Notes under the pieces: generated by a model
The model's input: the letters and a program-made list of their open reading frames with translations, nothing else
What the model was told of the DNA's origin: nothing
Database searches by the model: none
Virus record (IMG/VR): IMGVR_UViG_3300008448_000400
Span: 1-30,875 of that record
DNA from: a virus
Reading direction: 5' to 3' (one strand)
Length of the DNA stretch: 30,875 nt
Program-made: the position numbers and the translations under genes
Shown here: piece by piece, positions 1,220 through 30,864 of the stretch
Layout: every line of letters starts with the position of its first letter
Numbering within the stretch: the first letter of the stretch is position 1

Positions 1220-1263
1220 CCTTTGCCTACAAAGCAAAAACAAACAAACAAACAACAAAAAAC

Positions 1264-3641: not shown

Positions 3642-3683
3642 GGGGGGGGTGTTAATTATCTCTAAAATATTTTGACCCCCCCC
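3642..3683. repeat. G8T / AC8 inverted repeat with AT-rich loop
   Basis: Eight G then T (3642-3650) faces A then eight C (3675-3683): a perfect 9-bp, nearly all-GC stem around a 24-base AT-rich loop containing TCTAAAATATTTTG. As RNA or single-stranded DNA this would be very stable. It is not followed by a T-run on either strand in the way of a standard terminator. Homopolymers this long are also error-prone in sequencing, so exact run lengths deserve caution. Confidence 0.6.
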
Positions 3684-3753: not shown

Positions 3754-4209
3754 ATGTTAGACCTATCCCTCTATCTCTCCGCGTCGGCTATTGCTGCGCT
3801 ACCACTTAATATGACAACTAAAGAAGCCGCTGACTGGAAGTTCCTTAAAGCCGTTGCACTCGTCGAGTCCGGTGACCGCTACAACACTATCGGAGACGGT
3901 GGTAGAGCATTGGGCAAGTACCAGATGCACATGGGAGCATGGGTCGACGGTAACGGTTGGCTCAAGGCACACGGTCGAAAGACTTGGACGCGTAGCTCCT
4001 GGCTTAACCCGAAGGCGCAAGACCAGGTTGCTTACGGATTTTTACAGGCGACTAAAGAGCGTCTAGTGAATGGTGGCCACGAAGCCGACCCTATCACAAT
4101 CTACCTTGTGTACGCTATGGGCTACCAAGGCTGGAAGGATGCCAAGGGAATGATTCCTAAAGAAAAGGCAGATGCAGCGGTACGCGTCGGCAATCTATTT
4201 GCACAATGA
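3754..4209 (+). CDS. Lysozyme-like / lytic transglycosylase domain protein
   Basis: Likely a peptidoglycan-cleaving enzyme of the lysozyme superfamily. ALVESGDRYN carries the ES(G) motif with the presumed catalytic Glu (residue 38 from this start), followed by GDGGRALGKYQMH, matching the G-x-x-Q substrate segment of soluble lytic transglycosylases, and a helical C-terminal part with TIYLVYAMGYQGW. At about 150 aa it is a bare catalytic domain without a cell-wall-binding part. A GTG at 3742 and an ATG at 3811 are other starts; the first 19 residues (MLDLSLYLSASAIAALPLN) are hydrophobic enough for a weak signal or signal-anchor, which the 3811 start would remove. It opens the replication operon, far from the lysis cassette, and overlaps the next gene by ATGA. 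Confidence 0.72.
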   Translation: MLDLSLYLSASAIAALPLNMTTKEAADWKFLKAVALVESGDRYNTIGDGGRALGKYQMHMGAWVDGNGWLKAHGRKTWTRSSWLNPKAQDQVAYGFLQATKERLVNGGHEADPITIYLVYAMGYQGWKDAKGMIPKEKADAAVRVGNLFAQ

Positions 4210-4655
4210 GTTCCTACATTGCTATCGACCCTGGCTCTAAAGGGGCAATCGCTTGCTTCTCCTGCACCTCACCGGAGAACGTCGGCATATCGTCTCTATC
4301 CGATCCACCACAACTGTCAGACTTCTCAGAGTTTAGCCCTTCGCACTATACCGCTATCATCGAGGAGATACCAATGGGAGGCTGGGGGCCTATCCCTCAG
4401 TCGACGGTTGCCAAGCTACATCAAGGCTATGGCCGTATCCTAGGCATCCTAGAGGTACGAGGCTTCCGTATCATCCGCGTACGTCCGCAGGAATGGCAGA
4501 AAACCATAGGCGCAGGTAAGAAGCGTGACCACGGCAAAGACTGGAAAAAGCACCTGGCGCAGATTGCCAAAGACAGATTCCCTGCTGTCGAGTTTAAGCA
4601 AGACCAAGCCGACGCTTTGCTATTGCTAGACCACGCCCGGCAACTCAACTTGTAA
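4206..4655 (+). CDS. RuvC-like Holliday junction resolvase
   Basis: A RNase H-fold endonuclease that would cut four-way junctions made during phage recombination and replication. Metal-binding acidic residues are at expected places: Asp8 in IAIDPGSKGA, Glu53/Glu54 in AIIEEIPMG, and Asp133, Asp136 and Asp142 in the C-terminal DQADALLLLDHAR helix. The 149 aa length suits compact phage RuvC-type resolvases. RVRPQEWQKTIGAGKKRDHGKDWKK is a basic stretch likely to touch DNA. It starts by ATGA overlap with the lysozyme-like gene and precedes the recombination genes. Confidence 0.82.
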   Translation: MSSYIAIDPGSKGAIACFSCTSPENVGISSLSDPPQLSDFSEFSPSHYTAIIEEIPMGGWGPIPQSTVAKLHQGYGRILGILEVRGFRIIRVRPQEWQKTIGAGKKRDHGKDWKKHLAQIAKDRFPAVEFKQDQADALLLLDHARQLNL

Positions 4656-9553: not shown

Positions 9554-9648
9554 GCGATACAACCAAAATTGCTATGTGGGCTATCTTCCTTGCGGGAGTC
9601 TCTATTGGATTTTCTATTTCACAGTTAATTTATAAACTAAAACAATGA
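9550..9648 (+). CDS. Single-span membrane micro-protein, 32 aa
   Basis: ATGA overlaps on both sides (9550-9553 and 9645-9648) leave little doubt that this is translated. The peptide (MSDTTKIAMWAIFLAG at the start) has one hydrophobic helix with small residues (AGVSIGFSIS) followed by QLIYKLKQ, so a cytoplasmic basic C-terminus is likely. It resembles the peptide at 5852 in plan, not in sequence. Function unknown. Confidence 0.7.
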   Translation: MSDTTKIAMWAIFLAGVSIGFSISQLIYKLKQ

Positions 9649-18382: not shown

Positions 18383-20361
18383 TATGCGAGTCGGGCGGGA
18401 ACCCAGTAAGCAGTACCAGTATCGTCAATGACTTTCACTTCGTCTGGGTAATGCGATGTGAAACTTGTTCCAATACCGCTACCGTTGGCTTGAATCTCAC
18501 GGACGACGCGAGTGTTCTGTACGGTAGTATCTGCAAATGTGATACCAGTTCCAGCAGTAATGTTTAGAGTTCCGCTAAAGATGTCTATAAAGTCAATACT
18601 TGCCGCAGACCAAGTTGCCGTTCCGTCATTGATGAACGCAGTCGTTTGCAATGTCGAGTCGTTGAATGTTATTCCAGACGAATCGAGATTAACAGGACTT
18701 GCACCGCCAGATGATACTGGAGCCGTGATGCTGACAAACGAAGGACTGTCCGTGGTCTTTAGGCTCTGGTTAAACGACGAGAGTAACGCGTAGGTGCTGG
18801 CCGCAGTCGTGATAGTTAAGTAAGTCGAAGCCGCAGTCGTGACCGTCAAATAGTCAGCAGGAATAAACGCTGAATCTTGGAATGTAGCGTCTTGGAATGT
18901 GATACCTGTACCAGCGTATTCTGTGACCTTTCCAGCGGCAGGGTCTGATACACGAACTTTTGCACCGTTGGCAACAATGTCGATACCTGTTGAACTTGTA
19001 CCGAACACAAAACCAGTAGTACTTATTGAAGCAAACTCAACATTGTCAGTTGTGTTCAAGTCTTGGTCAAATGGGTTTGAACCAACTAGAGCATAACGAG
19101 TGTCACCGTCAGATACCGTTAAGAAAGGATTACCGCTAGCAGGTGAGGATGACGCGTTGATGGCCGCAACCGTGTCTGATCCATCGGTAGTAACACCTAA
19201 GTTCTGCCATAGGATATCCTGGGTGGCAGTAGATGGCGCGTCCACTAAGTCCTTACGGATGAAACGAGCATTGGCTACTGTCTCCGTTAAGAGAGTACCA
19301 ATAGGAACAGGGCCAACTGCTCCAGATGCGATGACCGCGTTAGCGACGGTGCAACCAACTTGTACTAAAACAGCATTGTTGCCGGCAGATTCAACAGAAA
19401 CTTCGAGGCTAGCCGATTCAGATGCTAGGTTGCCTAAGAAGGCAATCAGCTCGGAGGTAGCAAAGGATATGTCGCCAACTAAAGCGTCTGAAGCAACTAA
19501 ACCAGTACCGTCTACCGACGCGGTGAAGTTTCTAGTAAGTACGATATCATACTGATTCTGGTCAGTTTGGTTTACACTTCCGACCTGTCCGGCATCAACG
19601 CTGCCCGATAATGACGAGGTGATTGCTGTACGAACATCGCCAGAAGATGCGCCAACCCGGATGGCAGATATGTAGGTGTTTGTACCTCTTACCAAGGTTA
19701 ATGTCCAGAAGCCAGACTTTGGACTATTGATGAGGTTTACGCGGATGACTTGATTAACAGTATTCCAACCCGAAACGATTGAAGTAGCCACCGAAGGGCT
19801 GCCAATAGGTGCGAAGGTCGTAGCAAGGGCAAGTGGAGTCTGGCGCAGCTCTACGAAGACGATCTCGCGGGTGGACACGTCTCCAGCCTGGAGAACCAGT
19901 ATGGACTCATAGGATGAGGGCGTGAGCGTGTCCGACCCAGCGAGAATAGAAGGTTTAGTGCCTACGGTGTTCCAGGTAATGCTGTACCCTCCACCTAAGG
20001 AGGCTACGACTACGCCACCTGCGGTGCTAACCGCTGATAGGGCATTTAGGGCTGTTTGAACCGCAGAGGCCGATGCGTTGTAAGGAAGGTCGGATGTCTC
20101 GGTTGAACTAACAGACAGCCTCCATTCGCCTCCTAGGGGGTTCTTTGCCACCGTCCCCACGGCTACCTTGACGCTAGCACCGGCAGGGAATGGAATCTCG
20201 TATGGCGCACGTGCTACCCCTGCACCGGCAAGAAGGTGTAACTCTAGGGAAATGGTGTCCCCAGCGTGGAAAGTAGGGCTAGACGACGATATAAACGAAG
20301 AACCGCTGGATAACAAACGTCCAGTCTCCGCGTTAATCCATAGCTTGAGATTGTTAGCCAT
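18382..20361 (-). CDS. Tail fibre / tail tip protein with repeated modules, 659 aa
   Basis: Probable adhesin-type tail protein. ATG at 20361 (MANNLKLWINAETGRLL) follows the 16-base late element; an in-frame TTG inside that element (20385) is rejected because GAAGG within it acts as ribosome binding site. The N-terminal half is beta-rich, with GEWRLSVSSTETSDLPYNAS and SGFWTLTLVRGTNTYISAIRVG as two copies of one domain type. The C-terminal third repeats NPFDQDLNTTDNVEFASI and SFNQSLKTTDSPSFVSI, and GITFQDATFQDSAF, GITFNDSTLQTTAF and GITFADTTVQNT. These units also occur in the collagen-like fibre, so the two proteins share building blocks. No C-terminal peptidase S74 chaperone is seen. Confidence 0.72.
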   Translation of the reverse strand: MANNLKLWINAETGRLLSSGSSFISSSSPTFHAGDTISLELHLLAGAGVARAPYEIPFPAGASVKVAVGTVAKNPLGGEWRLSVSSTETSDLPYNASASAVQTALNALSAVSTAGGVVVASLGGGYSITWNTVGTKPSILAGSDTLTPSSYESILVLQAGDVSTREIVFVELRQTPLALATTFAPIGSPSVATSIVSGWNTVNQVIRVNLINSPKSGFWTLTLVRGTNTYISAIRVGASSGDVRTAITSSLSGSVDAGQVGSVNQTDQNQYDIVLTRNFTASVDGTGLVASDALVGDISFATSELIAFLGNLASESASLEVSVESAGNNAVLVQVGCTVANAVIASGAVGPVPIGTLLTETVANARFIRKDLVDAPSTATQDILWQNLGVTTDGSDTVAAINASSSPASGNPFLTVSDGDTRYALVGSNPFDQDLNTTDNVEFASISTTGFVFGTSSTGIDIVANGAKVRVSDPAAGKVTEYAGTGITFQDATFQDSAFIPADYLTVTTAASTYLTITTAASTYALLSSFNQSLKTTDSPSFVSITAPVSSGGASPVNLDSSGITFNDSTLQTTAFINDGTATWSAASIDFIDIFSGTLNITAGTGITFADTTVQNTRVVREIQANGSGIGTSFTSHYPDEVKVIDDTGTAYWVPARLA

Positions 20362-20369
20362 ACTGTCTT

Positions 20370-20385
20370 TATCGCCTTCAGTCAA
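20370..20385 (-). promoter_or_regulatory. Late 16-base element, copy 1 (before the 659-aa tail gene)
   Basis: Minus-strand TTGACTGAAGGCGATA, ending nine bases before the ATG. GAAGG lies at a usable Shine-Dalgarno distance. This is the only copy preceded by T instead of C. The element fills most of the 33-base gap after the upstream gene. Confidence 0.75.
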
Positions 20386-20394
20386 AGTAGACCA

Positions 20395-21378
20395 TTATTG
20401 GTCTTCGTAACGATCAATCATTTCAACTTGTTGAATGAATCCGATTGATGGTTCGCTTGAAAGCAAAAAACTAGCGTCAACATATGGTTCAATAATGGGA
20501 CTTTCAAACTTTACTCCGTGTTGCATATTTTCTTCAGAAAACCCATCGTGAAACTCACCGCTTGAAACTTCTCCTTCTTCTGGAGGGCCATAAACTGTGA
20601 TTCCTTCTGCATCCGTAAATGTCCTTACAAATCTAAACTTAAACTTTTTTCCAAAGCAATTAAACAAAGCCATAAACAATGAATTAGTTAAGTCTGGAGC
20701 TTGAAGAACAACAGAGTTTTTTAAAGGATAAGCATAAACATACAGCACAGCTTTTGTTGATGTTTCTTTCACAATTTCATAACCCATTGTGATATGAATT
20801 GGTTGACCGTCTGGTAAGCCAGGTGAATAACCGTATTCTGTTAAATTATAAGACCAAGTAGAACTTGGGCCATTTGAATATGTTGATTTGTATTCTGCGT
20901 TGAATCCAGTTCCATCATCAACATAAACACCTTGCTCAAAATATTTTTCAAGAAGCTGGTCTGGGGTGTAAGGTGGGCTAACGTAAGCCCTCGGCCCATT
21001 ACCTATTTCTTCTATTGATGTTCCGTCCTTAGCCTTCCAAGGATTTATTGTTGGCAAATACTCAAATCTAGGCTGTGGCTTCTTAGTGCCTGGAGTTGCG
21101 TTTCCGTTTGCAATTCCTGGGTCTTTATCAAGTTCTCTGATTTGAAAATGTCCTCCAGGTAAATATACAGCCGCAGAAGATGGGATTACATACTCAAATA
21201 AAGTCCACGATCTAACATATCTGCTTTCGTCTTTGTATGTTAAGTTAAATGTTTCTTCGTTTGGAGGAGAACCAACATTAGATGGATTATCTTTATTTAT
21301 GTAAATATAACGGTATCCGTTATAATATACAGACTCATTTAATGAGTAAGATTTTGTTTTATCCCATTCCGCTGACAT
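20395..21378 (-). CDS. Tail-associated protein with N-terminal carbohydrate-binding-like module
   Basis: The first 45 residues (AEWDKTKSYSLNESVYYNG, then YRYIYINKD) resemble the W-x-x-x-x-x-Y-x-x-x-D/E-x-V-x-Y-x-G-x-x-Y pattern of small chitin/cellulose-binding modules of the CBM5/12 type found at the ends of phage tail proteins. The rest is aromatic-rich, beta-rich and unassigned, with acidic loops (GPPEEGEVSSGEFHDGFSEEN). The gene is clearly more AT-rich than its fibre neighbours, hinting at separate ancestry. Position after the tape measure suggests a tail tip or receptor-binding part. Confidence 0.55.
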   Translation of the reverse strand: MSAEWDKTKSYSLNESVYYNGYRYIYINKDNPSNVGSPPNEETFNLTYKDESRYVRSWTLFEYVIPSSAAVYLPGGHFQIRELDKDPGIANGNATPGTKKPQPRFEYLPTINPWKAKDGTSIEEIGNGPRAYVSPPYTPDQLLEKYFEQGVYVDDGTGFNAEYKSTYSNGPSSTWSYNLTEYGYSPGLPDGQPIHITMGYEIVKETSTKAVLYVYAYPLKNSVVLQAPDLTNSLFMALFNCFGKKFKFRFVRTFTDAEGITVYGPPEEGEVSSGEFHDGFSEENMQHGVKFESPIIEPYVDASFLLSSEPSIGFIQQVEMIDRYEDQ

Positions 21379-21379
21379 A

Positions 21380-22018
21380 TCATCGAGAAGTCCAATTCCA
21401 AACAGCGATAGAGCCTCCCTTGACGCGTATTAACGCCAAGGATGCATATATAAACTGATTTATGGAACTTATGGACTTAATTGTGCCGCCTTCCTTATTC
21501 AATGAGATGCTTGCAATAACTATTTTGCCTTCTTCCGGAGTGTCATAAATAGATTCAAGGTCATCAACTAGATAAACATCAGTTGTGTTTGGGAAAAACT
21601 TTTTTTCTGCATTAACAGTTGCCCTCAAGACCACATATTTAACCGTTCCAGAAGCCGAGTTTAATTCAAGGTAAGGGCGAGGAACTTCGTCTAAATACTT
21701 ACCAGCCATAGGGCCGTTAAATACTTTTGGTATGAAACTGTTTACTGTACCTGCTCTTATGTAAAGATTGAAGCTACCTGCCGTCGTTCCAGGTTCGATT
21801 GTTACCTTAAAAGGGTAATCAATATTATTTCCAATACCAGCGTCGCGTGATCCAGTAAGGTCAACCGTCCCAAATGGCCCTTGCGCTACAAGGTTTCCAG
21901 TTGAGTGCCATTGACGACCGTACCCAGCGTGACGAGCCAAGTCGTTTAACTTTGACGCGTACAATATCTCGCCAGGGTAAAACATACCACCCTCTGACCT
22001 ATTGCCTTCAATGCTCAT
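21380..22018 (-). CDS. Tail tip protein, unassigned, 212 aa
   Basis: ATG at 22018 overlaps the previous stop (TAATG); the longer frame from 22066 is rejected because it lies inside that gene. The protein starts MSIEGNRSEGGMFYPGEILYASKLNDLARHAGYGRQW. A motif of the F-x-P-G-x-x-x-x-A-x-x-x-N-x-L type near the N-terminus is frequent in phage structural proteins. The rest is beta-rich (FNLYIRAGTVNSFIPKV, VKYVVLRATVNAEKK). One base separates it from the next gene. Presumably a virion component; role unresolved. Confidence 0.55.
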   Translation of the reverse strand: MSIEGNRSEGGMFYPGEILYASKLNDLARHAGYGRQWHSTGNLVAQGPFGTVDLTGSRDAGIGNNIDYPFKVTIEPGTTAGSFNLYIRAGTVNSFIPKVFNGPMAGKYLDEVPRPYLELNSASGTVKYVVLRATVNAEKKFFPNTTDVYLVDDLESIYDTPEEGKIVIASISLNKEGGTIKSISSINQFIYASLALIRVKGGSIAVWNWTSR

Positions 22019-22980
22019 TATGATCCAAAGTCTTGGGTGAAGGTCGGGTAGATATCTGAATCCCAACCTAAGACACCGGACAGAAGCAAGTCAGCCGTTA
22101 CTTTATATAGGCCACCGTAGACTTCCATATTGGCACTTGTGCATAACCAATTCTTTCCTCCTGTTGCGCTACCAATATTTTGAGCAGTTATTGTCAATGG
22201 ATCGTTGTCAGTAATGTTTTTATAAACATCTGGAACGCTAAGAACTCCAAAGCTGCCGTATGGATGAACCCAACCTACGCGATTAACGGTGTCGGTAGCC
22301 GATGCCCCATCGCTTGTGTAAGCAGTCAATCTAAGTGTAACGGTCGGACGCATCCAGGAGCGAACACCGGCTTTCTCATTTGCTAATTTTGACGTTGTAT
22401 TATCCGTAGGAGAGAAGCCTACAAAATTAAACGCTTGCGCACCAACTTGAACGTTAAAGTTTTGCTGCCATAATGCCCTAAACTTATTTTTAGGGTTTGG
22501 TGTGCCAGGTGGCTTTTCAAGCGTTGGCGGTTTATTACCTTCCCACACCCCTCCTAAAACTTCGTTGTCATTACCGCTACCAATTTGAGGGCATTGGATA
22601 ACTGAGAAGTTGGGGTGAGACTCAATAGGCTCAGAAACAACTGCTGAAGTCATAGTTGCCTCTGTATCCGTAATCATTGCCTTATTAGCAATCGCAGCAT
22701 AATAAACCGTTACATAAGAAAGAGAACCGTCTTTACCTTTTTCTTCTGCCTTAACGACAGTCCAATTTGCAATGTCAGCCAAAGCTGCGGACATAGCTTC
22801 TGAGCCAGCCTTGAATCCGTCTCCGCGTTTGAATCTTACGGAAGAAAGACCTGCATATGCGCTGTCGATTGCGTAGTTAGCGGTTAATTGCAAAAGGCCA
22901 TACCCATTGTGCGAAAACTGGTAATCCGGCTGGATAATCCAATCTGCTGCTTGTCCGTACTCTAGGTGTGTCTGTGTCAT
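22018..22980 (-). CDS. Tail-associated structural protein, unassigned, 320 aa
   Basis: Follows the tape measure and so is probably a distal tail or tail tip protein. Sequence is beta-rich throughout (YGLLQLTANYAID, LSYVTVYYAAIANKA, TVTLRLTAYTSDG, YGGLYKVTADLLLSGVLGW) with Pro/Asn-rich loops (WEGNKPPTLEKPPG). No domain was recognised. The ATG sits six bases after a TATAAT on the minus strand, so an internal promoter giving a leaderless or nearly leaderless transcript is possible. Confidence 0.58.
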   Translation of the reverse strand: MTQTHLEYGQAADWIIQPDYQFSHNGYGLLQLTANYAIDSAYAGLSSVRFKRGDGFKAGSEAMSAALADIANWTVVKAEEKGKDGSLSYVTVYYAAIANKAMITDTEATMTSAVVSEPIESHPNFSVIQCPQIGSGNDNEVLGGVWEGNKPPTLEKPPGTPNPKNKFRALWQQNFNVQVGAQAFNFVGFSPTDNTTSKLANEKAGVRSWMRPTVTLRLTAYTSDGASATDTVNRVGWVHPYGSFGVLSVPDVYKNITDNDPLTITAQNIGSATGGKNWLCTSANMEVYGGLYKVTADLLLSGVLGWDSDIYPTFTQDFGS

Positions 22981-22986
22981 AATGGT

Positions 22987-22995
22987 ATTATAGCA
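22987..22995 (-). promoter_or_regulatory. Candidate extended -10 promoter (TGCTATAAT)
   Basis: On the minus strand the 18-base gap after the tape measure gene contains TGCTATAAT, a perfect extended -10, ending six bases before the ATG at 22980. No good -35 is visible. If active, transcription would start at or next to the start codon. It is one of few consensus -10 elements seen in the late block. Confidence 0.4.
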
Positions 22996-22998
22996 TAC

Positions 22999-24078
22999 TT
23001 ATTTTAGTACGATTCCAGTTTGGGATTCTCCCATAGTAGATTCATACCATTGAAGCAATGCTTCGCTTGCATCAGCAGTCCGCTGAGTATTGTCGACGAT
23101 CTTATCTTGAGGGCCGCGCGCCAGGGCAGATAGGACATCGCCACCGCCCATTGCTTGCAAGGATGTGACACCGGAAAGCATTTGAGGCGTTCTTCCTAGA
23201 CCTCCACCCATCGCCTCCCTTTGCGAAAGTTGTGAAAACTCATATTGGTTATAGTTTGCAGCAGCAGAATACGCTAATTCTTTATCGTAAGCTCTAGAAT
23301 CTGGTAATGCAGCAAGCTGCGTTGGAGCACTTTTCAAAGCTATGAACTTTCTTATTTCTTCATAATTATTGCCTAAAAGTGCTTTAGCGTGTTCTTCATA
23401 CAACTGAGTGCTTCCGCTTTCTCCATACTTCCTTGACATCCTAGTAAGCAAATCTCTGAAGTTTAGTTTGTCTGGATTTGATTCATCTCCCTTATATCCA
23501 AAATACTCAAAAGCCCTCGACGCTTGAAAATTGGTATTACGCTCGGATTCCATAGATGCCCTAAAAGCGGTATTCACCATTTCGCTCATTTTATCTTTAT
23601 CAATACTAGATATAGCCCCGATGTTTTCAGCTCCAAAGTATTGACCTCCAGGTACTCCGCTTGAAGCTCTCGATGTGAAGAAGTTTTTTGTTTTTTGATA
23701 ATTATCTTCAATTTGTTGGGTAACCGTTTCAACCACCTTCATCCCAACAGCAAATAGGCCCAATGAACCTAGCAAAGTTTTGCCAAGTTCTTTTCCAAAC
23801 TTCTTTAACCATTCGTCAGCACTTGAAGTTGTTTCATTTATGGACTGTTGCTTTTTCCTTTCGGCTTCCTGCGCCATCTTTAGGTCGTTAGCAGTACGAC
23901 TCATTGCGTCCTTTGGATCAATGAACTTAGTGCCCTTTGCGCTGATGTCTGTATAGCCCTGGGTAAAGTCACCGCGTTTCTTACTGCGTAACTTGCGGTC
24001 GATGCTATCCGGCAATGCGGCCGCGGCTGCCTCGGCTTGCGAGACATCCATGCTTACTGAAAGTTTTACTTCAGACAT
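22999..24078 (-). CDS. Probable tail tape measure protein, short (359 aa)
   Basis: Sets tail length by spanning the tube. Clues: position after a tail-assembly-chaperone-like gene; a mostly helical, Ala/Gln/Lys-rich sequence; a hydrophobic segment GKTLLGSLGLFAVGMKVVETV near residues 95-115; and Gly-rich parts towards the end (AMGGGLGRTPQML). At 359 aa it is short for a tape measure; by the usual rule of about 0.15 nm per residue it would specify roughly 50-55 nm. ATG at 24078 has a strong AGGAGG seven bases upstream, inside the preceding gene, which it overlaps by eight bases; this is one of the best ribosome binding sites in the window. Confidence 0.6.
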   Translation of the reverse strand: MSEVKLSVSMDVSQAEAAAAALPDSIDRKLRSKKRGDFTQGYTDISAKGTKFIDPKDAMSRTANDLKMAQEAERKKQQSINETTSSADEWLKKFGKELGKTLLGSLGLFAVGMKVVETVTQQIEDNYQKTKNFFTSRASSGVPGGQYFGAENIGAISSIDKDKMSEMVNTAFRASMESERNTNFQASRAFEYFGYKGDESNPDKLNFRDLLTRMSRKYGESGSTQLYEEHAKALLGNNYEEIRKFIALKSAPTQLAALPDSRAYDKELAYSAAANYNQYEFSQLSQREAMGGGLGRTPQMLSGVTSLQAMGGGDVLSALARGPQDKIVDNTQRTADASEALLQWYESTMGESQTGIVLK

Positions 24079-24667
24079 TGGATTCCTCCTCAATTTGTTC
24101 TTTTTCGGCCTTCTCAGCTTCCATCTTTGCTAGGAACGCTTGCATTTGAATATCTTGATCGGAGACGATATCAATATCAGCGCCAGCACCAATCGCAAAC
24201 GCAGCGTTCATCCACACGGCTTGTGCTTCTGGCATTGTCCAAGCTTGTTCAAGTTCTACACCGTTTTTAACAAGGTTACAGACAACAGATAAAGCCCAAG
24301 GTATTCCCCTGTCTTTACCGCCTTGTTTCTTCCAAAAGATTGGCCACTTCGCTTGGTCTTCAATGCAACCAAATGCTTCTTTAACTTGTTCGACTAATAT
24401 TTCCGTATCGTCGTTCATTTTTCTAGCCCACTCGCTATCTTCCTTGGTTGGCTTCTCTGGCATCATTTCGCCCATATCATATGACGAGACAATCTTTGAA
24501 AAAACTAAAACGTCTAAATAAGATGGTACGCGTGAACCGTCTACAAACGGTGAACCAAGTGACTCAAGCACCAAACGGTGACGCAAGCACAAAGGCTTAG
24601 TTGAACGACCACACACCTCCCTCTGCCGAGGAAGGAGCGTAAATGCGCTTAGGAAACGGCCGTCCAT
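24071..24667 (-). CDS. Tail assembly chaperone-like protein, 198 aa
   Basis: Between the tube-like gene and the tape measure, the usual place of the chaperone that coats the tape measure before tube polymerisation. The sequence LPRQREVCGRSTKPLCLRHRLVLESLGSPF is of a type seen near the start of several phage tail chaperones (listing what may be adopted from a T-number-of-residues helical scaffold), followed by helical segments WARKMNDDTEILVEQVKEAFG and a Glu/Lys-rich tail (KMEAEKAEKEQIEEE). A second, frameshifted product as in gpG/gpGT was looked for; no convincing slippery site with a long alternative frame was found. Family assignment rests mostly on position. Confidence 0.5.
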   Translation of the reverse strand: MDGRFLSAFTLLPRQREVCGRSTKPLCLRHRLVLESLGSPFVDGSRVPSYLDVLVFSKIVSSYDMGEMMPEKPTKEDSEWARKMNDDTEILVEQVKEAFGCIEDQAKWPIFWKKQGGKDRGIPWALSVVCNLVKNGVELEQAWTMPEAQAVWMNAAFAIGAGADIDIVSDQDIQMQAFLAKMEAEKAEKEQIEEESNV

Positions 24668-24682
24668 TAGGCCGATATCGCG

Positions 24683-25021
24683 TTAAGCGATCTCCTGGTA
24701 CTTAATTCCTTTGATGCTGACCTTGCGGTAATCGTTATTTACACCGCGGTCTGTGACACCCTTAACAATAAAGACAACGCCACCGTAGGTGAATTGAGTA
24801 CCGATTAAATCTTCTGTGCCGGTAGCTTTCATCACACCATCAATGGAAACTTCAATACGCTCGTCATCCAAGCGGTCAGTAATGACGCGGCCGTTTTCGT
24901 CCTTAACTTCAACGTCAAGGGCGTACTTGTGGTCGAAATCGTCTGATTGCACCGTTAAGGTGGAAACAGTACCGTTCAAACCGTAGATGTGAACTACTCC
25001 AAACTCTTTTTCGGCTGCCAT
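24683..25021 (-). CDS. Probable tail tube protein, small (112 aa)
   Basis: A compact beta-rich protein (GVVHIYGLNGTVSTLTVQSDDF, KYALDVEVKDENGR, RIEVSIDGVMKATGTE, FTYGGVVFIVKGV) in the slot between the tail-terminator-like and chaperone-like genes, where the major tail protein is expected. Alternating strands and short length could fit a minimal tube fold, but there is no diagnostic motif. It is preceded by a copy of the 16-base late element, in line with a need for strong expression. Confidence 0.5.
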   Translation of the reverse strand: MAAEKEFGVVHIYGLNGTVSTLTVQSDDFDHKYALDVEVKDENGRVITDRLDDERIEVSIDGVMKATGTEDLIGTQFTYGGVVFIVKGVTDRGVNNDYRKVSIKGIKYQEIA

Positions 25022-25028
25022 TGTAATC

Positions 25029-25044
25029 TATCGCCTTCAGTCAA
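25029..25044 (-). promoter_or_regulatory. Late 16-base element, copy 2 (before the tube-like gene)
   Basis: Minus-strand TTGACTGAAGGCGATA, preceded by C, with its last base eight bases before the coding start at 25021 (seven intervening bases). It occupies most of the 25-base gap after the upstream stop. Identical to the other three copies. Confidence 0.75.
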
Positions 25045-25046
25045 GA

Positions 25047-25478
25047 TTAGGAAGGAGGTAGGCAAACCATCAGCGTATAGGTCAAGACATTGCCGTACCT
25101 GCGCTGTGACATACCCTCATTATCCGTCTCGCACCAAATGTCGTAAAGAGTGCCATAGGTTGCCGAGGAACCCCAGGCTGTCTTTAGCGAGGCATCGTCG
25201 GCAAGTGCTCCGTGGACTAGGGTTACCCTATCCCGGTGCTGTTGGAGAGTCTCGTCATCAGCAGAGGAATAAACGTAAATCTTTAGGGTTACACGGTAGT
25301 TGCCTAAATTATGCGATCCAAGGGAATAGGGCCGTACTGCATCTGAGGCATGGGCCACGATGATTGGGACGACGCGTAGCTCATCTGTGACCCCCTTATT
25401 GACGGTTACAGCTGGGATGGCTGCGGAAAGGTAGGATTCTATCTTGTCCTCAACTATGGATCGGATGTGGTTGCTCAT
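25047..25478 (-). CDS. Tail terminator / completion protein-like, 143 aa
   Basis: Position and shape suggest the protein that caps the tail tube and joins it to the head. A helix at the start (MSNHIRSIVEDKIESYL) is followed by strands VVPIIVAHASDAVRPYSLGSHNLGNYRVTLKIYVYSSADD and a helix LQQHRDRVTLVHGAL, then DIWCETDNEGMSQRRYGNVLTYTLMVCLPPS. The helix-strand-helix-strand order resembles gpU/HK97 gp10-neighbour type tail terminators. ATG at 25478 shares one base with the upstream stop (TAATG). Confidence 0.55.
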   Translation of the reverse strand: MSNHIRSIVEDKIESYLSAAIPAVTVNKGVTDELRVVPIIVAHASDAVRPYSLGSHNLGNYRVTLKIYVYSSADDETLQQHRDRVTLVHGALADDASLKTAWGSSATYGTLYDIWCETDNEGMSQRRYGNVLTYTLMVCLPPS

Positions 25479-26443
25479 TATTCTAAAATATCTCCTGGGG
25501 CTATGCCAAGGCGACGTGCTGCCTCGCGGACATCTACTCCTGACCCTCTAGTTGCCCTCTCAAGGCGTTTTGCGATGTCATTGCGCATAGCGTATGCCCG
25601 GTAGTTAACAGCGGTCTTCCAAAGGTCACGCCCAGGGCTTTTAGTCATCAAACCTTGGATGCTGTTTCCGATAATAATTGTAGGAGTCTGTTTGTTGGAA
25701 GTCTGGTCAATGTAGATTCCAGTCCCCTGCCCTACGTGCCTAGAAATCCAAGCAGGTGCTCGCATATGGCGACCTATGGATAAACCAGCTTCAAGCCAGC
25801 CGGATTTAAGACGGCCGACGTGCTCCTTCATTTTAGATTTATAGGCTTTAATGTTCTTATCGTAATTACCGACAAAGAAAGTTGTGCTACGTGCCTTTAC
25901 GTTCTTGGAATAGTCGTCGACGTTTGTCCCACCGCGTATGCGTTGGTGCGCTTCGTCGATACCGTCTCCTTGGAAAGTTGAGAATACGCCTACCTTGCCT
26001 ACGCGCTTGCCGGCATAGGTGGTTCTAAACTTGTCCCACACCTTTACAGAATTGACGTAACCGCCTACGCCCTTGGAGACATATTTAGGAATCTCTTTTC
26101 CGGCTTTCTCTCTAGCAGCTACCCATTCCGCAAATACACCATACTCGCCTTGGTCGGCAATGGCAGAGAATGAAGCATTTTCAAGCGGCTTGAATATACG
26201 GTCAATGTCGGCTTCCATCGAAATCTCACCTACTGCTCTGGCATCTAAACCTTCACCGCGTCGACCGCCAGGTTGCCCGGAGATTGGCAAAGTGTAACTA
26301 AGCATATCTTGGCATAGAAGGCCAGCCTGTGTCCTAACTGTGTCTTCTGCTGTCTTGCCCATCACGTGCGACCAAACAGCAAGATGTTTCCTCAACTCGC
26401 TGCTATCAACCTTGATATTGGTCTGTGCCGTGACGATTGCCAT
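25478..26443 (-). CDS. Neck / minor structural protein, unassigned, 321 aa
   Basis: Lies between the head-tail connector and tail terminator genes, where HK97 gp10-type neck proteins occur. It has a helical N-terminus (SSELRKHLAVWSHVMGKTAEDTVRTQAGLLCQDML), a Gly/Arg-rich region (SGQPGGRRGEG) and a basic, aromatic C-terminal half (KSKMKEHVGRLKSGWLEAGLSIGRHM, RAYAMRNDIAKRLERATRGS). Helical start followed by R/K-rich sequence is common to such proteins, but at 321 aa it is about twice their usual length. TAATG junctions couple it on both sides. Confidence 0.5.
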   Translation of the reverse strand: MAIVTAQTNIKVDSSELRKHLAVWSHVMGKTAEDTVRTQAGLLCQDMLSYTLPISGQPGGRRGEGLDARAVGEISMEADIDRIFKPLENASFSAIADQGEYGVFAEWVAAREKAGKEIPKYVSKGVGGYVNSVKVWDKFRTTYAGKRVGKVGVFSTFQGDGIDEAHQRIRGGTNVDDYSKNVKARSTTFFVGNYDKNIKAYKSKMKEHVGRLKSGWLEAGLSIGRHMRAPAWISRHVGQGTGIYIDQTSNKQTPTIIIGNSIQGLMTKSPGRDLWKTAVNYRAYAMRNDIAKRLERATRGSGVDVREAARRLGIAPGDILE

Positions 26444-26778
26444 TATTGAACCTTGGTCTGTATCTTAGCGATGATCCAAGCGGAAGGTGGACGGTTAGCA
26501 ATGGCCACGATGCGGTAGTCTTCGCTGTTATAATTTACCACGTTACCGTAAGCGAATAGACCTGGATAAAGATTATGTTGAGCGCGTGTAATCTTAACCT
26601 CGAAAGAAGTTTGATTAAGGAAACCACCAGTCTCTAAATCCTGCATAACCATTGGCTGTGTCACCAATGCTTTTAGAGCAACAGGTGTGCCTCCTGGAAC
26701 GTTTTTAACAGTTATGTCCTTACCAATCTCAAGCAAGATAGACACGGCATCCGAACCGACTTCATCGTAAAGTCCCAT
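26443..26778 (-). CDS. Head-tail joining (stopper)-like protein, 111 aa
   Basis: A small beta-rich protein directly after the coat gene in transcription order. MGLYDEVGSDAVSILLEIGKDITVKNVPGGTPVALKALVTQPM and FEVKITRAQHNLYPGLFAYGNVVNYNSEDYRIVAIANRPPSAW resemble the beta-barrel head-tail joining proteins of the gpFII type, including an N-terminal acidic helix and a YRI strand near the end. It is the first gene after the coat gene's terminator and is preceded by a late element, so its expression must come from read-through or a local start. Confidence 0.58.
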   Translation of the reverse strand: MGLYDEVGSDAVSILLEIGKDITVKNVPGGTPVALKALVTQPMVMQDLETGGFLNQTSFEVKITRAQHNLYPGLFAYGNVVNYNSEDYRIVAIANRPPSAWIIAKIQTKVQ

Positions 26779-26782
26779 AGTC

Positions 26783-26798
26783 TATCGCCTTCAGTCAA
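26783..26798 (-). promoter_or_regulatory. Late 16-base element, copy 3 (after the coat-gene terminator)
   Basis: Minus-strand TTGACTGAAGGCGATA, preceded by C, with four bases (GACT) between it and the ATG at 26778; this is the closest spacing of the four copies. It begins only about a dozen bases after the terminator hairpin, so it could mark the 5' end of a separate translation or transcription unit. Confidence 0.75.
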
Positions 26799-26802
26799 GA
26801 TG

Positions 26803-26840
26803 CACAAAAGAGAGAGGCTCCCCGATTGGAGAGCCTCTCT
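26803..26840 (-). terminator. Rho-independent terminator downstream of the coat gene
   Basis: AGAGAGGCTC (26811-26820) and GAGCCTCTCT (26831-26840) form a perfect 10-bp stem with a 10-base loop. Read on the minus strand, the stem is followed by CTTTTGTGC, a short T-tract. Located 50-80 bases after the coat gene's stop, it would end or attenuate the portal-to-coat transcript. Confidence 0.72.
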
Positions 26841-26853
26841 TGCATTGGCGCGT

Positions 26854-26875
26854 GTGAAGGTCACTCGACCCTCAC
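26854..26875 (-). other. Second hairpin between coat gene and terminator
   Basis: GTGAAGGTC (26854-26862) faces GACCCTCAC (26867-26875) across a 4-base loop with one mismatch. It precedes the terminator in the minus-strand transcript and lacks a T-tract, so it may protect the coat mRNA 3' end or serve as a protein-binding stem-loop. Confidence 0.5.
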
Positions 26876-26891
26876 GAAAGCCGAACTGCTA

Positions 26892-27794
26892 TTAAGCAGT
26901 CAGATTGATGCGCTGGAGTGCGTCGGGGTTACCCTTAGCAGCACCGATGAGCCAGGTTGCGCTGATCTTGTGCAGACCTGCTGACCAATCATACCAGTAG
27001 CGAAGCGAGTAGGTGAAACCGCTGTCTTTGTCTTCGACGAGTTCTTGATAACCGCCACCAGTTGTAGGAGCAGCAGGAACGCGTGTGACGACCACTAAAC
27101 CTTCACGGCAGGAGACGACACCATTGAGTGTGGCATCCATACCGACAGCACCGAAGCCATTGTACTCGTAGAACTCGATACCGTGAATCATTCCGAGGCG
27201 ATTACCGCGGATGATTTCGTTAGTACCGATTGAGAACGCTTGAGCGATTACTGGATCGCTGATGAGCTGTTGATAGATGTCTGGGCTTACGAGAGCAGCG
27301 CGGCCTTCTTGGGGAAGGTTGGCTTTGGTTAAGCTCTTAGCGATGTTCGATACAGCGATACGGTTGAATGTGCTGAGAGCACCATTGAATCCGGAAGCGA
27401 ATGAACCGTCGACTTCAGCGAGGGCAACGTCGAACACCGACTTGACGACGGCATTAGCGAGAGGAGCCATGAACAAGTTACGAAGGCGCTCCAGGGAGAG
27501 CGTAGCAACTTCAGTATCCGTGAAGGATACGGTGACGTGCTTCTGAGCGTCGAGCGAGACAAACACGTCTGTCGATTCCGCATTGGATTCGACGAAGCCT
27601 GTTGCCTTGCTGTAATCAGCAGCGGTGAACTTACCCGCAAAGCGAGTGTGAACACCAGTACCGCGTTCAGCGGTGTAGGAGCCGAAGTCCGTGACCGCAA
27701 TCTTGGTCAAGGGCTGAAGCTGGGGGACGAGCGTCCGGAGGGATTCCTCTGCGACGAGCTGGAGGGATAAGCCTCCGATGCTGTTAGTAGCCAT
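26892..27794 (-). CDS. Major capsid (coat) protein, 300 aa
   Basis: Probable coat protein: about 300 aa, right after the scaffold-like gene, followed by strong hairpins as coat genes often are. The plan MATNSIGGLSLQLVAEESLRTL, then LTKIAVTDFGSYTAERGTGVHTRFAGKFTAADY (P-domain-like strand after an N-arm) and the E-loop-like VFVSLDAQKHVTVSFTDTEVATLSLERLRNLFMAPLANAVVKSVFDVAL spine helix resemble P22-type coat proteins (P22_CoatProtein family). Later parts have GRAALVSPDIYQQL and YSLRYWYDWSAGLHKISATWLIGAAKG. Its leader has no late element, only AATAATAACACATT. Confidence 0.8.
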   Translation of the reverse strand: MATNSIGGLSLQLVAEESLRTLVPQLQPLTKIAVTDFGSYTAERGTGVHTRFAGKFTAADYSKATGFVESNAESTDVFVSLDAQKHVTVSFTDTEVATLSLERLRNLFMAPLANAVVKSVFDVALAEVDGSFASGFNGALSTFNRIAVSNIAKSLTKANLPQEGRAALVSPDIYQQLISDPVIAQAFSIGTNEIIRGNRLGMIHGIEFYEYNGFGAVGMDATLNGVVSCREGLVVVTRVPAAPTTGGGYQELVEDKDSGFTYSLRYWYDWSAGLHKISATWLIGAAKGNPDALQRINLTA

Positions 27795-27820
27795 AATGTG
27801 TTATTATTGGGTGGGTGAAA

Positions 27821-28291
27821 TTAGCGAAGGCCGGCAGCAGCCTTGAGGGCTGGCAAGTTGCGGTCGTAAAACTCGCGGGCGGCCTTTGGATCAGTCTGCT
27901 TGAGTGCAACCCACTCGTCAGCGATGTCCTGTGGTGTCTTTGACTTCTCTGTGAAAACAGCAGGGGAAACTTCGACAGGCTCAACACCGACTGAAGCAGC
28001 GATAGCAGCGGCTTTCTTGCCGGCTGACTCAATCTTGCCTTCAGCTTCAGTCTTAGCGGTCTTTAGGAGAGTGTTCAACTCGATAGCCTTGGAAAGTTCT
28101 GCTTCCAGGGTTGCGACCTTAGTGGTCAATTCAGCTGCAACGGCTTTGATGGCTTCTGCGCCAGCAAGTGCTTCTGCGTTAGCAAGAATAGTTGCTTCAA
28201 GGGCAGTAACCTTTTCGGCTAATGCTTTTGCTTCATCCGATTTGCCACCGAGAGTGTTCTTCAAGGCGTTAAGAGTCTGTTCGAGCGTCAT
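27821..28291 (-). CDS. Scaffold-like protein, 156 aa
   Basis: An almost wholly helical, Ala/Glu/Lys-rich protein: LNALKNTLGGKSDEAKALAEKVTALEATILANAEAL continuing into a long coiled coil to about residue 95, then a flexible Pro-containing linker and a helical C-terminus (DIADEWVALKQTDPKAAREFYDRNLPALKAAAGLR). Position between the prohead protease and the coat gene, and coiled-coil composition, fit an internal scaffold removed on maturation. The helix-loop-helix end would be the coat-binding part by analogy with other scaffolds. Preceded by a late element. Confidence 0.72.
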   Translation of the reverse strand: MTLEQTLNALKNTLGGKSDEAKALAEKVTALEATILANAEALAGAEAIKAVAAELTTKVATLEAELSKAIELNTLLKTAKTEAEGKIESAGKKAAAIAASVGVEPVEVSPAVFTEKSKTPQDIADEWVALKQTDPKAAREFYDRNLPALKAAAGLR

Positions 28292-28298
28292 TGTGCTT

Positions 28299-28314
28299 TA
28301 TCGCCTTCAGTCAA
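28299..28314 (-). promoter_or_regulatory. Late 16-base element, copy 4 (before the scaffold-like gene)
   Basis: Minus-strand TTGACTGAAGGCGATA, preceded by C, with seven bases between it and the ATG at 28291. It fills the gap between the protease stop (28318) and the scaffold start. Identical to the other three copies. Confidence 0.75.
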
Positions 28315-28317
28315 GTT

Positions 28318-29238
28318 TCACTCGGATTCCTTTTCGTGCTCTTCTTTTTCTTCTTCAGCAGTTTCCGAATCTTCGTGCTTTTCGTGCTCGTCTTTTTCCT
28401 CTGTGAAAGCCCTCCATTGAGCAGAACGGCCAAGTGCTTCTTCCAAGTCGTCGGCAAGCCCTGTGACCATATTGTGTTCAGCAGACTTCTTACCGCTGAA
28501 CCCTTGGCCTTCCATGTGCTCGTCTTCAACTTCTGTGCGAACCATTTTAACGTCATTCTTAAAGTCTGTGTGGATTTCATTTACGTCGTCTTGAACGTGC
28601 TTGCGCTGTTCTTCGGTCATAGAAGTACCTGGGACACCGATAGCCTTGAGCTTGCCGGCTTTGATTACGTCCATTTTGATACCTTCCATGTCAAAAGCTT
28701 TGGTATAGTCGGGCATAGCAACGTACACGCCAACCGATCCGACCGTAGCCGAAGGGGTAGCGTAAAACTCGTTACATTGGCTAGCCATCCAGTACGCAGC
28801 CGAGCAAGCCTCACCGTCGGTGTATGCAATCGTGTGCTTGGCTTGGCCAAGTGCTCGTAGAACCTTTGCAACCTCTGGAACGCCTGTTACAGTACCGCCA
28901 GGGCTGTCCACGTCGAGGATGACGGTCTTAACGTCGTCTGACTCTAGGCAATGCTTTGCCCATCCCTTGATGTCTTCCACGTCGGTTGCACCCATCATTT
29001 TTTCCAGGGCCGTCAATTTGGAGCCGATTACGCCCTTGATCGGGATAATGGCCACGTCGTCCTCGATGGTCATCTCTGGCTGTTCGCCAAAGAGCATTGT
29101 CAGCACTTCTTTCATGTCTTCTGCCTTTTTAGCAGTCGAGATGTCGAGGCTGGCAACTCGGTCGAGGTAACCTTGTGCCTTCGATGGGTCGATGAGGATT
29201 GGTGTACCCGATTTAAGGGCTGAGGCTAGTTGACGCAT
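28318..29238 (-). CDS. Prohead protease, S49 (SppA-like) family
   Basis: A serine protease that trims head proteins during capsid maturation. The S49 hallmarks are present: VAIIPIKGVIGS, TVILDVDSPGGTVTGV (106-120), the presumed nucleophile Ser146 in GEACSAAYWMAS, VGSVGVYVAMPDY, and the presumed general-base Lys196 in IKAGKLKAIG. Residues from about 270 form an acidic, His-rich tail (EKHEDSETAEEEKEEHEKE) likely to be disordered. The N-terminal 50 residues are helical. It lies between portal and scaffold genes, the order of lambda-type head modules; here the scaffold is a separate gene. Confidence 0.88.
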   Translation of the reverse strand: MRQLASALKSGTPILIDPSKAQGYLDRVASLDISTAKKAEDMKEVLTMLFGEQPEMTIEDDVAIIPIKGVIGSKLTALEKMMGATDVEDIKGWAKHCLESDDVKTVILDVDSPGGTVTGVPEVAKVLRALGQAKHTIAYTDGEACSAAYWMASQCNEFYATPSATVGSVGVYVAMPDYTKAFDMEGIKMDVIKAGKLKAIGVPGTSMTEEQRKHVQDDVNEIHTDFKNDVKMVRTEVEDEHMEGQGFSGKKSAEHNMVTGLADDLEEALGRSAQWRAFTEEKDEHEKHEDSETAEEEKEEHEKESE

Positions 29239-29253: not shown

Positions 29254-30864
29254 TTAGTCTCCGATGGTATCACCGGGGTCGAGATTCTCGTCGTCGAGGC
29301 GGTATGGTTTCGCTTTTTCGTCTTCATCCCTGTCGTCAATCATATCTTCGTCTTCGTTTGGAGGAGAAAGGGGTTTGGGTGACGCATTGACATCGGCTAG
29401 CGACGCGTTGCCAGGGTTGTAGACCATCCAGAGAGGTACGCCTTCGGCTGCGCACTCGTCGACAATCATCTTGGCTTCACGGACACGCTTCTTGAGCTGT
29501 GTGGAGTAATGTTCGCCTTCTTCTTGAGCGTTCTCGCTCATGTTCTTGATACCCATTACAATATCGGCACGATTTTGTGCGGCATCGCGTGAAGCATCGA
29601 CGGTGAGACGCTTAGGGGTAGTCCACATTACGCGTGTCCAGTTGTCATTGGCTGGCAATTCGCCATTGGCGATTGCGTCCCCGACCACGTATCCCCACAG
29701 GGGCGTGAGGAATCGTGAAATCAGCACATTTTGCATCTGCTTGAACTGACGGTCAGCCTTAGCAATGACTAGACGCATTGATGCGCCACCAGCCTTGGAT
29801 GGATCGTGTACGAACTCGTACGGAAGGACACCGGAAAGCGAGTCACGGACTAAATGCTCCATGAATCCTGTGAAAGTAGAATTAGGACGGTTTGATTGGA
29901 ACGACTCTAGTTTCTCACCAGGTGCAAGAGCGATAACCTTGCCACCGATAAAGGTAGAAGTCTGCTCTGGGTCAGTCATTCCGTTAGGGCCGTAATTTTG
30001 TGGCTTCATTCCAAACGCCTCAAAGTCGCCTTGTGATTGGTCAAATTGGCCGGTCTCTCGTGTGATAGTGCGAGTAATATCACCGTTCATTTTGCAAGCA
30101 AACTTTTCCAAGCTGATTATTTCTAGCATATCTATCACATTATTGATGCTATGCTGAAGTGGGCTGTACGCACGTGCTCCGCTTGCAACTTCCGGAGAGA
30201 ATACGTGCATCACCGCACCCGAAGGTACGCGACGATTGCCACCACTTGATTTTACAACGTTATACCATTCTGGCTTTCCGTAAGGGCCAAACTTGATGCC
30301 ATCGACTTCACCTTGCTCCGGTGCTCCGCTGTTAGCGCAAGCCACACGGTGACTTTCGATAAGTTGGATTTTTGGACGACCTGCACTATCACGTGCCTTA
30401 ATTGGGAAACACTCGCCATCTCGCATTACTAGACGTGCAACGATCTGTTGGATTTCGTAAAGGTTGAATCTGCCCGTAATGTCGCAAGGTACAGCAGCCC
30501 ATTTTGCAAAGTACTGTTCGTACTGCTCATCGAGCTGCGGGTTTCCGGTGCGTACTTGTGCGGTGATACCGTCACCAACGCTGTATAAAACGTAATCGGA
30601 TAGAACCTGGCGAATAACACCAGCGTTCAACTCCATCCAGCGCATCTTGCGCGTAGTTTCAAGACGGTCAAAGACCGTCATCGTCTTCTTAAAGTCAGTC
30701 GGCCAAGAAGACCATACCCACGATCTCTTGTTACTGAACTTTGCGGACTCGAAATTGGAGAAGATGCCAGGGCCGCCAGTAGCCTTTGGCTTCAAGTCTG
30801 GAGCCTTAGTACCACGAGCCTTCGGGATAGCCTTAGCCTTTTGAATAGTTTTTTTGCGCGCCAT
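29254..30864 (-). CDS. Portal protein, lambda gpB type
   Basis: Forms the dodecameric DNA channel at the capsid vertex. The sequence has the usual run of lambda-type portals: TTRKMRWMELNAGVIRQVLSDYVLYSVGDGI, ITGRFNLYEIQQIVARLVMRDGECFPI, IQLIESHRVA, a HVFSPEVASGARAYSPLQHSINNVIDM segment, a LAPGEKLESFQSNRPNSTFTGFMEHLVRDSLSGVLPYEFVHDPSKAGGASMRLVIAKADRQF segment read in pieces here as LAPGEKLE, GVLPYEF and GGASMRLV, and a Pro/Asp/Glu-rich C-terminal tail. The N-terminus is very basic (MARKKTIQKAKAIPKARG). At 536 aa its length is normal. It starts 11 bases from the window edge; the terminase genes are expected just beyond. Confidence 0.9.
   Translation of the reverse strand: MARKKTIQKAKAIPKARGTKAPDLKPKATGGPGIFSNFESAKFSNKRSWVWSSWPTDFKKTMTVFDRLETTRKMRWMELNAGVIRQVLSDYVLYSVGDGITAQVRTGNPQLDEQYEQYFAKWAAVPCDITGRFNLYEIQQIVARLVMRDGECFPIKARDSAGRPKIQLIESHRVACANSGAPEQGEVDGIKFGPYGKPEWYNVVKSSGGNRRVPSGAVMHVFSPEVASGARAYSPLQHSINNVIDMLEIISLEKFACKMNGDITRTITRETGQFDQSQGDFEAFGMKPQNYGPNGMTDPEQTSTFIGGKVIALAPGEKLESFQSNRPNSTFTGFMEHLVRDSLSGVLPYEFVHDPSKAGGASMRLVIAKADRQFKQMQNVLISRFLTPLWGYVVGDAIANGELPANDNWTRVMWTTPKRLTVDASRDAAQNRADIVMGIKNMSENAQEEGEHYSTQLKKRVREAKMIVDECAAEGVPLWMVYNPGNASLADVNASPKPLSPPNEDEDMIDDRDEDEKAKPYRLDDENLDPGDTIGD

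Follow-up and report, generated by a model that had tools for sequence, protein, structure and literature searches.

Late Genes and the Repeated Element

The window, by which we mean the whole analysed stretch of 30,875 nucleotides, carries its late structural genes on the minus strand (Table 1). PHROG support is limited to the portal, the protease, the major capsid protein (MCP) and the tail proteins. The tail label given in the initial annotation is therefore backed by a profile match, whereas its scaffold-, connector- and tube-like labels come from gene order. MCP is probably the most expressed gene. No tRNA was found in the window and no known RNA family was matched.

The 16-mer TTGACTGAAGGCGATA is present in four exact copies, all on the minus (late) strand and 4–8 nt 5' of ATGs, as had been described. 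The copies at 28299-28314, 26783-26798, 25029-25044 and 20370-20385 lie 7, 4, 7 and 8 nt from the ATG, within the range of four to nine bases given before, and the gaps from the preceding gene are, in the same order, 26, 113, 25 and 33 nt. The described placement in a short gap or just after a terminator thus agrees with the measurements, as the 113-nt gap contains an intrinsic terminator. Further matches with up to three mismatches do not occur in the window, and shuffled controls gave a mean of 0.20 matches and reached four in 0 of 100 cases. No other gene in the window is preceded by the element (best PWM score elsewhere 2.2, versus 11.3–18.5 for the element). The start codon of the tail gene is the ATG at 20361, and the ORF finder's TTG start at 20385 is the element's own TTG. 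In two close relatives (L025 and L028; 74–91% nucleotide identity over the aligned parts) all four copies are kept exactly. At their tail gene the flank upstream of the element is unrelated and the element itself is exact, which suggests that it is held by selection.

Table 1. Genes and sequence features of the window that bear on the repeated element.
Feature	Position	Strand	Remarks
Small conserved HTH-like early protein, 76 aa	11907..12137	+	Cluster 15 (6 of the 8 compared genomes); HTH by eye
Large tail protein, 659 aa	18382..20361	-	phrog_10909 tail, 6.5e-7
Late-promoter-like element, tail class	20366..20385	-	Exact copy; predicted +1 about 20364-20366
Tube-like gene, 112 aa	24683..25021	-	By position; class conserved in relatives
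Late-promoter-like element, tube-like class	25025..25044	-	Exact copy; predicted +1 about 25024
After-MCP, connector-like gene, 111 aa	26443..26778	-	By position; class conserved in relatives
Late-promoter-like element, after-MCP class: TTGACTGAAGGCGATAgact	26779..26798	-	Exact copy; leaderless, with +1 predicted at 26778, the A of the ATG
Intrinsic terminator: 13-bp stem, then CTTTTGTG	26811..26840	-	Between MCP and after-MCP element
Major capsid protein (MCP)	26892..27794	-	phrog_283, 1.8e-19; no element before MCP
Scaffold-like gene, 156 aa	27821..28291	-	First of scaffold-MCP block; by position; no PHROG match
Late-promoter-like element, scaffold-like class: TTGACTGAAGGCGATAaagc	28295..28314	-	Exact copy; orthologous in relatives; predicted +1 about 28294-28295
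Head maturation protease	28318..29238	-	phrog_53, 2.2e-55; no element before protease gene
Portal	29254..30864	-	phrog_21; fifth element (5' of small pre-portal gene) beyond window end

Other types of leader were also seen in the window. Positions 22981-22998 (minus strand) in the late region read TGCTATAAT-ACCATT-ATG. Transcription from this extended -10 would begin on the ATG, making it a possible leaderless host-type promoter. The early genes (window 1230-1263 and other early leaders) have A-rich leaders without Shine–Dalgarno sites.

Conservation in Related Phages

A capsid-protein search yielded 80 loci with MCPs that are 56–99% identical. Loci extending to the relevant gene starts mostly have start-adjacent elements, each in its own spelling. 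The comparison with related phages proposed in the initial annotation thus gave some 80 relatives with their own version of the element at the same five gene starts. Clustering of the downstream proteins assigned these to the small pre-portal gene, the scaffold-like gene, the after-MCP gene, the tube-like gene and the tail position, the last being either the large tail gene or a 107-aa tail gene. The sister phage L046 shows the fifth copy (TTGACTCAAGGCGATA, at 3643) 5' of the small gene upstream of the portal. Near-complete relatives have about five strong copies, on the late strand only, and a few weaker isolated matches elsewhere. Over 949 kb, at a PWM score of at least 14, the late strand had 266 matches adjoining an ATG and 9 elsewhere, and the other strand had 0. 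Repetition before late units on the late strand, which characterizes a phage-specific late promoter, was hence found in five classes and in 266 of 275 matches.

The exact 16-mer was rejected as a widespread element. Of its 40 matches in viral contigs, 37 are single and chance-like in unrelated contigs, and nearly all of them have no nearby ATG; this differs from the random occurrence inside genes of the phage or its relatives that had been named as an argument against the element. The refuting conditions given in the initial annotation thus leave the finding standing. In several lineages TTGACC or TTTACA replaces TTGACA/T, only in the pre-portal and after-MCP classes, and these variants are possibly weaker promoters for low-copy proteins.

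Consensus and Geometry

The family consensus, taken from a logo of 104 deduplicated sites, is TTGACW-N3-GGC-NA-N4-YA. Since the pattern used to collect sites fixed TTKAC and SGC-N-A, the presence of those letters is in part a product of the search. The pattern set no condition on the free spacer, the YA step or the distance to the ATG, and an unbiased 11-mer repeat scan recovered the same core independently. Offsets 6–8 hold about 0 bits of information across the 104 sites. Therefore, the GAAGG of the window, earlier noted to be at ribosome-binding distance, is incidental: its letters are free in relatives, and it is the TTGACW/GGC core that is conserved.

The pyrimidine–adenine (YA) step is found at offset 18–19 in 63 of the 75 sites (84%) with an ATG offset of at least 21, versus 4–22% at neighbouring offsets. 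The ATG offset ranges from 18 to 33 by gene class and is never earlier, while the distance of YA from TTGAC stays fixed. In three copies of the window's own clade YA comes one base later (offset 19–20), and in the tail copy its place is ambiguous, which is the main irregularity of the start-site reading. A pyrimidine before the ATG was rejected as a sign of leaderless starts, as it is non-specific and present also at sites with distant ATGs. In codons 2–13 divergence is 0.03–0.29 at positions 1–2 versus 0.44–0.56 at position 3, which indicates that coding truly begins at the element-adjacent ATG, and TTGAC can therefore not be the -35 of a start about 35 nt downstream.

It had been suggested that the copies are short homologies kept for recombinational exchange of modules. 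They do lie at module boundaries, but in most relatives the copies of one genome differ from one another in the three spacer bases and in all their flanks, while the core is fixed there and evolves per genome. Moreover, the fixed YA geometry and the strand bias would stay unexplained, and we regard module exchange as extremely improbable.

Known Promoter and Ribosome-Binding Site Classes

In a sigma-70 promoter the -35 and -10 hexamers are 16–18 nt apart and the start lies 5–9 nt after the -10. TTGACT had been noted to look like a -35 without a -10, and this holds for the family: no conserved hexamer is found 16–18 nt after TTGACW, so a sigma-70 promoter was rejected. No recognisable -10 of a known sigma factor is present in the element, and the late half has 16 sigma-70-like sites versus 17.9 expected by chance. 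The element could instead bind a late repressor or activator, as an operator overlapping ordinary host sigma-70 promoters, given that TTGACA resembles a -35 and that letters vary in concert within a genome. However, sigma-70-like pairs in the late half are at chance frequency, there is hardly any conservation in the stretch from -30 to -2 ahead of TTGAC, and a start 30–35 nt after TTGAC would fall in conserved coding sequence. An operator therefore seems very unlikely. A sigma-54 promoter (GG/GC at -24/-12) was also rejected, since the logo has no such pair and TTGAC and GGC are 9 bp apart from start to start.

Shine–Dalgarno or extended anti-Shine–Dalgarno pairing does not account for the element either, as offsets 6–8 are free and the distance to the ATG varies by 15 nt. 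In a wider sense, a signal in the mRNA leader could raise or time translation of the five genes through a phage protein or rRNA pairing. The element is always close to an ATG, obvious Shine–Dalgarno sites are absent from the early and most other late genes, and the SAS repeats of mycobacteriophages were interpreted in this way (PMC3203893). Still, YA keeps its place relative to TTGAC when the ATG moves, GAAGG is not conserved, MCP has no element, and the terminator just upstream is left unexplained, which makes a role in translation distinctly unlikely.

Probable Transcription Start and Late Units

In all 18 distinct sites of the after-MCP class, the 45 nt directly 5' of the element contain a strong hairpin (mean MFE -25.5, z -6); in the other classes no strong hairpin was found directly upstream of the element. 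Such a terminator, lying immediately 5' of the element, would stop the preceding transcript, and the following mRNA must then begin nearby. For the pre-portal and after-MCP classes, the position of the ATG requires an mRNA 5' end at or upstream of offset 18–20. The fixed YA with a moving ATG, the upstream terminator and the absence of an element before MCP all point to a transcription start, and from these we infer, as the simplest reading, that transcription starts at the YA step.

Alternatively, one long late transcript could be cut near YA by a host or phage endonuclease, with the hairpin behind MCP protecting the upstream 3' end. The strand specificity, the position next to gene starts, the fixed cut-like position and the hairpin before one class would fit with this. 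Processing would, however, require the strong hairpin to be read through at all 18 of the sites. In addition, the conserved letters extend over about 20 nt, interrupted by three free spacer positions, the other classes have no unusual upstream structure, and the genome-specific letters suggest a co-evolving specific reader. Processing thus seems unlikely. Of the options named in the initial annotation (translation enhancer, processing site or regulator-binding site), a fixed recognition site is supported, and the element behaves as a transcription-start element and not as a translational one.

On the basis of these sequence comparisons, each copy of the element is probably a phage-specific late promoter core at the head of one of five late units: pre-portal, portal and protease; scaffold and MCP; the after-MCP block; the tube block; and the tail block. 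With the presumed +1 purine as reference, TTGACW would be at about -19 to -14 and GGC-N-A at about -10 to -6. Transcription would start at the pyrimidine–adenine step, and the mRNA would begin with the A of the ATG or at most about 14 nt upstream of that base. The element is real and strongly conserved, and it most likely represents a new family of phage late promoters with leaderless or short-leader mRNAs. With its fixed geometry across some 80 relatives, the motif allows starts to be predicted exactly and divides the late region into five units. Dark phage contigs could be annotated with its help, and it points to a candidate trans-factor. If the reading is true, it would provide a clear example of leaderless or near-leaderless mRNAs serving the late genes of a phage.

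Genome-Specific Letters and a Candidate Trans-Factor

At offsets 5, 12 and 14–17 letter agreement is 0.44–0.72 within a genome versus 0.24–0.38 between genomes, and the spacer offsets 6–8 agree much less within a genome than these do. Such concerted change suggests a co-evolving trans-factor. In six host-like Verrucomicrobiota genomes the motif had 3 matches versus 5 for a reversed control, i.e. no enrichment. No RNA polymerase is among the Pfam and PHROG matches of the window. In 12 records PF00940 (T7-type polymerase) had no match, and its control likewise matched nowhere; PF04542 (sigma-70 region 2) had no match in 12 records that are possibly fragments, with controls positive in 10 of 14.

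A phage factor might direct host RNA polymerase to the elements, although this is more weakly inferred than the start itself. In most relatives that reach that far, two DNA-binding-type proteins are encoded just before the terminase genes. One is winged-helix-like (AlphaFold2 pLDDT 87), the other an HTH protein; in L046 they are encoded at 275-589 and 601-1113, respectively. The closest likeness of the HTH protein's C-terminal domain is to sigma region 4, but it is weak: the best VIA-align hit has Z 4.8 over 63 residues at 3.2 A in a list of mostly sigma region 4 chains, Pfam Sigma70_r4 gives only 0.08, and Foldseek E values are 0.2 or worse. Neither protein has a confident fold relative in the VIA-align and Foldseek lists. 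In a partial Mantel test of element against protein distance with portal distance removed, the HTH protein gave r 0.19 (p 0.03), which is not significant after correction for five tests, and the other four candidate proteins were negative. The HTH protein would be the best candidate for the factor, a lead and not proof. The 76-aa HTH-like early protein of the window (Table 1) is a secondary candidate regulator. Upstream of the winged-helix/HTH/terminase operon many relatives have large inverted repeats (ATTTACTATGTATCCCC...GGGGATAAGACATAGTAAAT; in L135 at about 4200–4260).

A more far-reaching idea is that a phage family lacking its own polymerase or sigma factor redirects host RNA polymerase by a small protein with a sigma-region-4-like HTH to bipartite -19/-10 promoters, with leaderless late mRNAs and a species-specific spelling that co-evolves with the factor. 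This may be so, but we consider it less likely than not.

Comparison with Known Systems

The late promoter of T4, TATAAATA, is read with the phage factor gp55. The present element is similar in that a small repeated motif, not recognisable as a host promoter, precedes each late unit, but its sequence is different, no sigma factor was found, the core is the bipartite TTGAC/GGC, and the start codon is at or just after the predicted +1. Promoters of the single-subunit RNA polymerases of T7 and SP6 occupy about 20 bp directly 5' of +1. Here, too, about 20 bp directly upstream of a predicted +1 are involved and genome-specific letters are common to all copies; however, the annotated genes include no T7-type polymerase and the sequence is unrelated.

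Among named phages, the nearest are P8625 (Puniceicoccales) and Akkermansia phage Moulinsart, at low identity. The capsid-based search found no prophage in genomes. Distant relatives turned up in a terminase-based search and lie mostly in Verrucomicrobiota genomes. The prophage L199 has looser TTGACA-N4-GGC leaders. Ahead of structural genes, P8625 and L203, a Verrucomicrobiales MAG contig, each have a repeated leader of their own that differs in sequence; in P8625 some of the gene positions are the same. The P8625 leader is TTGACA-N17-TATTGGATAC-N3-ATG with a GTATCCA/TGGATAC inverted repeat; at L181:5412, 10736 and 15558 it reads TTGACA-N17-TATTGG/TATCTG with the inverted repeat ending 2–3 nt before the ATG, and a further partial copy lies near 9647 after a terminator-like sequence. 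In L203 (12489-15030) five copies of GGGTCGCTGAGC-N6-CGTT, about 23–27 nt before the ATG, precede consecutive genes downstream of the terminase gene, an element of unrelated sequence in the same role. This could imply that phage-specific, start-adjacent late leaders are general in these phages. The word 'promoter' is absent from the P8625 genome paper (PMC4642752), and the literature searched held no account of late transcription in Verrucomicrobia phages.

The closest described pattern is that of the SAS/ESAS of cluster K mycobacteriophages, where a short, asymmetric, phage-specific repeat lies a few nucleotides before many ATGs, almost always in one orientation, and is absent from the host (PMC3203893, PMC11373665). 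The ESAS letters differ between subclusters, and ESAS were later read as SigA-like promoters with an inverted repeat (PMC3203893, PMC11373665). The SAS itself, a GGGATAGGAGCCC-like 13-mer located 3–9 nt before non-structural ATGs, was rejected as an identity for our element, since sequence and gene classes differ: SAS contain AGGAG and belong to the non-structural right arm, whereas the element described here is confined to the late structural block, has no conserved Shine–Dalgarno site, and combines a free 3-nt spacer with a YA step at fixed distance. Phage late promoters are a known class; this member, its geometry and its putative reader are new.
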